Shown here: one piece after another, positions 36,468-38,525 of the stretch | How positions within the stretch are numbered: the first letter of the stretch is position 1 | Layout of the letters: every line of letters begins with the position of its first letter | Source of the DNA: Otariodibacter oris | Lineage (GTDB): Bacteria > Pseudomonadota > Gammaproteobacteria > Enterobacterales > Pasteurellaceae | Direction of reading: 5' to 3' | NCBI RefSeq assembly: GCF_009684715.1 | Contig: NZ_CP016604.1 | Span: forward strand, 635,262-699,261 | DNA length: 64,000 nucleotides | The notes under the pieces: generated by a model | Databases searched by the model: none | What the model was told of the DNA's origin: nothing | The model's input: the letters and a program-made list of their open reading frames with translations, nothing else | Made by a program: the position numbers and the translations under genes

Positions 36468-36995
36468 ATGATTATTAATAAAATAACCCTATTAAGTCTT
36501 GTATCTGCAGTAGCTTTAGTGGGATGTAGTAGTAATACGATAGAGAGGAAAGTTTCTTCAAATCATATGAATGTGCAGAAAGCTGATTCCTATGGGTTTT
36601 CTCAAGGTAGTGTTGCAGATCCTATTTTTGTTATTAGTAGCCTAAGTGAGCAGCAAGAGGAGTGGAAGGGTACTCGTTATGTTCTTGGCGGTACGACAAA
36701 GAATGGAATAGACTGTTCAGCATTTGTACAAATTACATTTCGTGAATTATTTGGATTGAATTTACCTAGAATGACGAGGGATCAAGTCAAAGAAGGAAGT
36801 AAAGTTGCTAAATCTGATTTGAAGCCTGGAGACTTAGTTTTCTTTAAAACAGGTAGAGGGCCAAATGGATATCATGTGGGTATTTATGCTCAGAATGGCA
36901 AGTTTCTGCATGCTTCAACAAAGGGGGGCGTTATTTATTCAGACTTGAATTCACCTTATTGGAGTAAAACCTACTGGCAAGCTCGTCGTGTATAG
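36468..36995 (+). CDS. NlpC/P60-family lipoprotein, probable murein endopeptidase
   Basis: A 175 aa lipoprotein with a lipobox ending at Cys20 (LVGC), then an NlpC/P60 cysteine peptidase domain. The catalytic Cys83 is in NGIDCSAFVQITF; His136 in YHVGIYA and His148 in FLHAS complete the usual triad region. Homologues NlpC and Spr/MepS in E. coli cleave peptide crosslinks; which of the two this equals is not clear. It lies 24 bp after ihfA. The region after its stop contains a separate regulatory and RNA-like signal. Confidence 0.9.
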   Translation: MIINKITLLSLVSAVALVGCSSNTIERKVSSNHMNVQKADSYGFSQGSVADPIFVISSLSEQQEEWKGTRYVLGGTTKNGIDCSAFVQITFRELFGLNLPRMTRDQVKEGSKVAKSDLKPGDLVFFKTGRGPNGYHVGIYAQNGKFLHASTKGGVIYSDLNSPYWSKTYWQARRV

Positions 36996-37001
36996 ATAAA
37001 A

Positions 37002-37017
37002 TGCGATGTGGATCACA
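37002..37017 (+). promoter_or_regulatory. Predicted CRP-binding site
   Basis: TGCGATGTGGATCACA fits TGTGA-N6-TCACA at nine of ten core positions, with the correct six-base spacing and A/T flanks. The single deviation (TGCGA) resembles a CRP-S half-site. It lies seven bases after the NlpC/P60 stop, and the next gene on this strand is 700 bp away, so it most likely controls something in the interval. Confidence 0.65.
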
Positions 37018-37050
37018 AATTTACGAATAAATGGAAGGCAAAATAGAATA

Positions 37051-37169
37051 AAATTTGAAAATTTTTGTTGTTTGCACTAATCTGTAAGTAACAAAAAGAA
37101 AGTGTTGTACTAGACAACCAAATTAATAATTTTGCTTTCCGAGTAGCCCCTATTTAGGGGCTTTTTTTA
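37051..37169 (+). ncRNA. Candidate small RNA with its own CRP-linked promoter
   Basis: Between the CRP site and a strong terminator there is no open frame worth the name, but there are promoter-like hexamers: TAGAAT at 37044-37049, or TTGAAA (37055-37060) with TAATCT (37078-37083) at 17 bp. Transcripts of roughly 80-119 nt would result. The core can fold with GAAAG (37098-37102) closing on CTTTC (37135-37139), enclosing GTTGT/ACAAC and AAATT/AATTT hairpins, before the terminator stem and a T7 tail. This is inference; it could instead be only the 3' end of the NlpC/P60 mRNA. The start is uncertain. Confidence 0.45.
37145..37169 (+). terminator. Rho-independent terminator after the NlpC/P60 gene/sRNA candidate
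   Basis: AGCCCC / GGGGCT stem with a TATTTA loop followed by seven T. The T run is only on the plus strand, so it ends rightward transcription and not the convergent yfbV. Confidence 0.93.
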
Positions 37170-37171
37170 TT

Positions 37172-37612
37172 CTATAATTCGTCAAAGTAGGCATCGCCCC
37201 AAGTCTTTTCTGCAAGTTGGAGTAAATTTGCAAAATCTTGATAGGAGGGTACCGCTTGATCTCCTATTTTTTTATGTTGTTCATGAATAAGTTTTTGACG
37301 AAGTGTTTCATACCATTCTAACAAAGAGAGTGGAAGAGGTGATTCTGCACGTTTTCCTAACCAAAATAACCCTTGGAAAGGGATACTTAATGCAAAGAGT
37401 GATGTAATAATAGCATTCGCTGTGATGGTTTGCTCAGGATCGGCAAAACTAAATTGCCAAATAATCGCAAAACAAGCAAAAGCTGGCATAATTCGTGATG
37501 AAAGTTTCACTAGCCGAATCAATCTATAATCAGGCAAAAAGAGATTCAGTTTCTTTTGATTAGGAAAGGTATTTAAGTAATTTTGCCCTGCTTGTAATAT
37601 GGCAAACATATT
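37172..37612 (-). CDS. yfbV: YfbV, UPF0208 membrane protein
   Basis: A 146 aa inner-membrane protein with two hydrophobic segments (about residues 42-60 and 70-88). It matches E. coli YfbV (FALSIPFQGLFWLGKRAESPLP), which has been linked to Ter macrodomain insulation. The open frame reaches 37657, but the ATG at 37612 has AGGAAG upstream and gives the conserved short N-terminus (MFAILQAGQNYLNTFP). It converges with the preceding terminator. Confidence 0.9.
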   Translation of the reverse strand, partial: NMFAILQAGQNYLNTFPNQKKLNLFLPDYRLIRLVKLSSRIMPAFACFAIIWQFSFADPEQTITANAIITSLFALSIPFQGLFWLGKRAESPLPLSLLEWYETLRQKLIHEQHKKIGDQAVPSYQDFANLLQLAEKTWGDAYFDEL

Positions 37613-37724
37613 GATTTCTTCCTGATGTATCTTTATAAATTTGATAATATCTATCATAGCGAAATAACTAAACTGTTGCTATACTTCCCGACGATTTTGA
37701 CAGTTTGATATAAGGAATTTCTTC

Positions 37725-38525
37725 ATGCCTATCAATTTTCAGCTATTGCTACAAGAAAGTTGGAATTTTATGCGTAATCAATTAAATTTTTCTCTTTTTG
37801 GAGTTGGATTATTGATTATCTTACAAATAATTGCTCTATATTTTTTACCTGATAGCAATGTTTCTCCAGAGAGTATGCATTCAGTTTCTTCAATGGAAGA
37901 TATTGATATGTTGGCTTTTTCCTCCGCTATTATTTGGGCTCTGTTGAGTATATGGGTAAATATCCTTTTGATTTTAAATATTAAATCAATTAATGCTGGG
38001 CGATATCATTCTTTTTTGAACAATGGTAACGAAGCATTAAAAAGACTTATACCTGTTACTATTTTAAATTTGGTTACTGTTGTACCGGCACTCATCTTTT
38101 CTTTACCTGGCATGTCTATTATTACTGGAGGAGTTCTTTTCTCTTCAATGGGAGTTGCTGTGATGATGTTCTTTATAATGGTAGGAGTTGTTGTAATGTT
38201 GCCTGGAATATTAGTTTTTGTTAAATATTCCTTGGTAACTTACGTCCATTTAGTAGAAGAGCCTAAAAAAAGTATAGGTGAAACTTTAAAATTTACTTGG
38301 GCAATGAGCCGAGAAAAAATGAAATTACTTTTTATCTTTTGTGGGATCACTTCTCTATTCCCATTATTAGTCAATGCCTGGCTTAGCCAATTAGATCGAG
38401 ATATGGGCATATTAATTGCAATAATAAGTGCTTTTATTAATGTCTTTATGGTCATATTTAGCTTCCGTTTTTATCAGGTTTATCGAGAGTTGCCTATTGC
38501 TCAAAGAAAAGGTGAGAAAATATGA
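37725..38525 (+). CDS. yciC: YciC-like UPF0259 membrane protein
   Basis: A 266 aa polytopic membrane protein with about six hydrophobic segments. Sequence similarity to E. coli YciC is moderate ([48 protein letters not shown]), but its place directly before yciB-yciA, the reverse-listed E. coli neighbours, supports the call. The function is unknown. Its stop overlaps the yciB start by four bases. Confidence 0.8.

Follow-up and report, generated by a model that had tools for sequence, protein, structure and literature searches.

A conserved predicted CRP site and promoter associated with an AaHKsRNA20-family small RNA in Otariodibacter oris and other Pasteurellaceae

The nlpC-DUF412 interval and its small RNA

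The window analysed is a stretch of 64,000 nucleotides from the genome of Otariodibacter oris (contig NZ_CP016604.1), which consists of 2.02 Mb in a single contig. The nlpC gene ends with the stop codon TAG at positions 36993-36995, and the interval that follows contains a predicted binding site for the cAMP receptor protein (CRP), a putative promoter, a small RNA of a catalogued family and an intrinsic terminator (Table 1). The next gene, which encodes a DUF412 protein, is on the opposite strand and the next plus-strand open reading frame after the small RNA starts at 37725, about 700 nt further on. This agrees with an earlier note made from the DNA letters, according to which the CRP site has no coding target to its right within 700 bp.

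Table 1 Features of the nlpC-DUF412 interval. Positions are those of the window.
Feature	Positions	Strand	Evidence
nlpC, NlpC/P60 lipoprotein (upstream neighbour, outside the small RNA unit)	36468-36995	+	Pfam PF00877, E 1.2e-33
Predicted CRP-binding site, TGCGATGTGGATCACA	37002-37017	+	9/10 core; centre at about -80.5 relative to the predicted start
-35 hexamer, TTTGAA	37054-37059	+	Column conservation 0.90 in 14 nlpC-linked genera, against 0.60 for the CRP-to--35 stretch
-10 hexamer, TAATCT	37078-37083	+	18 nt after the -35; aligns with TATTCT/TATCCT/TAATCT in relatives
AaHKsRNA20-family small RNA	37090-37169	+	RF02898 match; start (~37090) predicted from the -10 box; end in the T run
Hairpin 1, GTTGT-ACTAG-ACAAC	37104-37118	+	All cells (100%) paired across 36 genera; double changes in 4/5 pairs
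Invariant 14-mer between the two hairpins, TTTGCTTTCCGAGT	37131-37144	+	Identical in 36/36 genus representatives
Intrinsic terminator, AGCCCCTATTTAGGGGCT and T run	37145-37169	+	Stem covaries; 97.6% of cells paired
DUF412 (YfbV-like) gene (convergent neighbour only)	37172-37657	-	Pfam PF04217, E 2.8e-51

When the whole window was compared with Rfam 15, a single match exceeded a curated cut-off, RF02898 (AaHKsRNA20), at 37095-37173, with a score of 72 bits (cut-off 43 bits) over model positions 1-77 of 77; neither Spot 42 nor CyaR had a match above its cut-off anywhere in the window. The small RNA, which the earlier note did not recognise, therefore already has a family, and the hairpin 1, linker and terminator that characterise RF02898 are conserved.

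Matches to the RF02898 model were present in 126 of 140 Pasteurellaceae genomes, representing 37 of 43 genera, and in none of the 14 control genomes. No convincing match could be obtained in several genera, even when a model constructed for this analysis was used. Elsewhere in the order a single genome had a weak match of 35.9 bits, which is below the cut-off and was not accepted as a member. Scanning 84,980 species for a sequence pattern yielded 72 stretches, all from the Pasteurellaceae except one in a Dadabacteria MAG, which is GC-rich, has no terminator and is attributed to chance, and one in the record CABDVE010000001.1, titled Pseudomonas stutzeri NCTC11607. The latter record, which corresponds to a genome (G128) that groups with Rodentibacter-like genomes, is probably mislabelled. 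Judged by these sequence searches, the AaHKsRNA20 family is confined to the Pasteurellaceae.

In Actinobacillus pleuropneumoniae, co-immunoprecipitation with Hfq recovered the homologue Rna02, which was placed in RF02898 and described as poorly characterized (PMC9577009). It was confirmed on a northern blot and was reduced or undetected in an hfq mutant (PMC9577009). The window copy has the same hairpin 1, invariant stretch and terminator as Rna02, and the covariance score places it in the same family; the Hfq binding is that reported for the homologue.

Covarying fold and invariant linker

An alignment of one representative per genus from 36 genera was used to assess the structure. The genera fall into two sets by the stem of hairpin 1, which reads GCUAU/AUAGC in one and GUUGU/ACAAC in the other. 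Taken together, hairpin 1 and the terminator stem have 98.6% of cells paired, and 8 of their 12 pairs show double changes; none of 500 shuffles matched either the observed percentage paired or the covariation score. The strong plus-strand terminator described in the earlier note also outranks the other terminator-like sites of the region. Of the foldable core proposed in the same note, together with a covariation check across the Pasteurellaceae, the GTTGT/ACAAC hairpin withstood the comparison and, like the terminator, covaries strongly. The outer closing stem, GAAAG/CTTTC, is not conserved, being fully formed in the window sequence alone among the 36 genera, and was rejected, while the AAATT/AATTT hairpin found little support in the alignment. 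At one locus (G085), an insertion of approximately 24 nt in the hairpin 1 region gives a longer CRP-to-seed distance than in relatives.

Between the two conserved hairpins lies the invariant 14-mer, which is single-stranded in the consensus fold save that bases close to its end pair marginally with the T run. It is the likely target-pairing seed of the RNA.

Predicted CRP site and promoter upstream of the RNA

The CRP site begins 7 nt past the nlpC stop codon, where the earlier note had placed a site with 9 of 10 core matches. Conservation of the site, which that note had set as a test, was assessed against the core consensus TGTGA-N6-TCACA in 122 oriented homologous loci from 37 genera, with one locus per genus for the genus counts. 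A site with at least 9/10 matches was found upstream of the RNA in 31 of 37 genera (109 of 122 when counted by locus), whereas dinucleotide shuffles of the same searched stretches gave such sites in a mean of 0.1 and a maximum of 2 genera, and the test was thus passed. The window site has a C at one core position, unlike most relatives, and its half-site is weaker than that of the best Actinobacillus genomes, which score 10/10. All 140 Pasteurellaceae genomes carry a crp gene.

Two promoter-like matches were found in the region compared with 5.7 in shuffles, so the hexamers by themselves, which the earlier note had listed as part of its case, carry little weight. It is conservation that supports the pair at 37054-37083, giving a predicted start near 37090; other genera have TTTGAA or TTTGCA at the same -35 place. 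The pair TTTACG/TAGAAT at 37020-37049, returned by a simple scan, was rejected in favour of these hexamers. In the 14 nlpC-linked genera, conservation is 0.85 for the CRP cores, 0.90 for the -35 hexamer and 0.92 for the RNA, as against 0.60 for the stretch from the CRP site to the -35, such that the CRP site, the -35 and the seed form islands of conservation amid drifting intergenic sequence.

The centre of the CRP site is mostly at -60.5 from the predicted start in one set of genera and at -80.5 in the other, approximately two helical turns apart; these distances use predicted starts, and some rows deviate merely because another hexamer was chosen. On the basis of the predicted starts, the site is on the correct helix face upstream of the -35 in most genomes, and in the window it is close to the consensus (9/10). 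Conservation and spacing together are what a class I promoter under CRP activation should show, and activation is therefore the predicted effect.

The location of the RNA varies. One set of genera has it after nlpC; in others it is found after mdh, after modA, beside pta, between ilvH and argS (in a Haemophilus genome) and in other places (the names of neighbours other than nlpC were read from translations). The CRP site and promoter accompany the RNA in most of these neighbourhoods, which suggests that the site belongs to the RNA and is not a leftover of one neighbour.

The chief alternative is that the small RNA is real but that the CRP site has another function or is vestigial, with the RNA under other control, for example by an oxygen regulator. 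Poor sites despite the presence of the RNA were found in Haemophilus ducreyi (best 6/10), two Aggregatibacter genomes (7/10) and the Testudinibacter group, and the retention of the RNA by H. ducreyi where the CRP site is absent is in keeping with such control. So is the expression of Rna02 in A. pleuropneumoniae, which occurs mostly or exclusively in aerobic growth (PMC9577009) and which CRP alone does not explain; Rna02 was not detected by RT-PCR in vesicles or anaerobic cells (PMC10708910). Against this, the helical phase of the CRP site relative to the -10 box is kept in most genera, the site travels with the RNA between unrelated gene neighbourhoods and there is no other promoter near it in the window. 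This alternative is considered unlikely. In H. ducreyi (G071), the RNA is intact and the CRP site is lost while crp is still present.

A second possibility is that the site is a Sxy-dependent CRP-S site, which would put the RNA in the competence regulon of the window species. The CRP-S core is TGCGA-N6-TCGCA, and the half-site TGCGA, found only in the window and in Muribacter, resembles one half of it. The other half of the window site is TCACA, however, so that one half alone fits, and the first half is TGTGA, CGTGA or TATGA in most relatives; no conserved CRP-S core was found, and this possibility is regarded as highly improbable. Least credible is that the RNA is merely the 3' UTR of the nlpC mRNA or a fragment derived from its terminator, since, although it directly follows nlpC in the sense direction, many genera have this RNA, complete with a conserved promoter of its own, after mdh or modA, between ilvH and argS or elsewhere, and it several times adjoins opposite-strand genes.

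The best-supported reading is thus the one proposed in the earlier note, a small RNA linked to CRP that has a promoter and a terminator of its own; the CRP site, hairpin 1 and the terminator are conserved family-wide. The RNA itself was already catalogued and the CRP site appears to be the new part. CRP is nowhere mentioned in either of the two studies of Rna02 (PMC9577009, PMC10708910), and a full-text literature search that covered few subscription papers returned no report of CRP control of AaHKsRNA20.

The only other genome of the genus of the window (G104) has a decayed copy of the RNA after nlpC that was missed by the Rfam search, with the seed TTTTACTTTCTAAGTGG instead of TTTTGCTTTCCGAGTAG, an 8/10 CRP site and a weakened terminator, which suggests that degeneration of the RNA is under way in this closest relative.

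Candidate targets and proposed regulatory role

The invariant stretch contains CUUUCC, which is able to pair with ribosome-binding sites of the GGAAAG type. The seed could therefore cover such sites, which makes repression of translation the most likely outcome. Four computational searches gave no target candidate above control. For the complement of the seed in the genome of the window (16-mer, at most 3 mismatches), there were 21 sites compared with 20 for the reversed pattern, and, of the sites inspected, the majority fell within coding sequence. Among 14 genomes, a 13-mer search with at most 1 mismatch gave no candidate gene common to different genera, and a search for CGGAAAG within 10 nt of an ATG gave no cross-genus candidate and was not clearly above the reversed-pattern control. 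Target prediction also drew on stretches sampled from two genomes. The best duplex energies at 734 gene starts in approximately 864 kb of the genome of the window were little better than those of shuffled seeds, and no pair among 215 orthologous gene pairs from this genome and a Haemophilus genome exceeded shuffled seeds.

Individual genes were also considered. At the start of degP in the genome of the window, GGAAAGCAAAA, a perfect complement of 11 bp to the seed covers the ribosome-binding site; other genera do not share this match, and degP was rejected. The most attractive functional candidate among the orthologous pairs, mglC (galactose uptake), was compared in 30 genomes and was likewise rejected, as 24 of 300 shuffled seeds did equally well, which is not significant; the pairing falls mostly in conserved coding sequence. 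The MglC query had no match in the H. ducreyi genome. In a Haemophilus genome (G065), the start of a dsbA-like gene, GGAAAGCAAA, is complementary to the seed, and the sequence taken as its counterpart in the genome of the window lacks this complement.

Taken together, the locus very probably represents an AaHKsRNA20 gene with a CRP-activated class I promoter, the product of which would pair with mRNAs through its seed with the assistance of Hfq. When the preferred sugar is scarce, cAMP-CRP would bind upstream as a class I activator and, as the site and its spacing suggest, recruit RNA polymerase to the promoter, from which an RNA of approximately 80 nt would be transcribed as far as the terminator. 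The RNA would bind Hfq, as its A. pleuropneumoniae homologue does, and the invariant stretch between the hairpins, UUUGCUUUCCGAGU, may then pair with mRNAs and probably repress their translation.

CRP in the Pasteurellaceae also governs natural competence and sugar use, and a CRP-controlled Hfq RNA, if true, would be a missing layer of this network. What the present analysis adds is family-wide evidence placing AaHKsRNA20 in the CRP network. A conserved, correctly phased CRP site provides a testable input signal for a poorly characterized RNA in Haemophilus, Pasteurella, Actinobacillus, Mannheimia, Aggregatibacter and others, and the invariant 14-mer is a defined place to mutate.

A broader proposal, favoured with moderate confidence, is that AaHKsRNA20 is a family-wide RNA arm of the Pasteurellaceae CRP regulon, acting on several mRNAs through the 14-nt seed as the counterpart of Spot 42 and CyaR. 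It would act like one or other of these enterobacterial RNAs while being unrelated to both. Spot 42 (Spf) of the enterobacteria and Vibrio is likewise a CRP-linked Hfq small RNA with a terminator and is not homologous to AaHKsRNA20 by Rfam. CRP acts on Spot 42 as a repressor; for AaHKsRNA20, the class I position of the site predicts activation instead. CyaR, also an Hfq small RNA, is activated by CRP and pairs with its targets at ribosome-binding sites; AaHKsRNA20 differs from it in sequence, has no Rfam match to it and is found only in the Pasteurellaceae.
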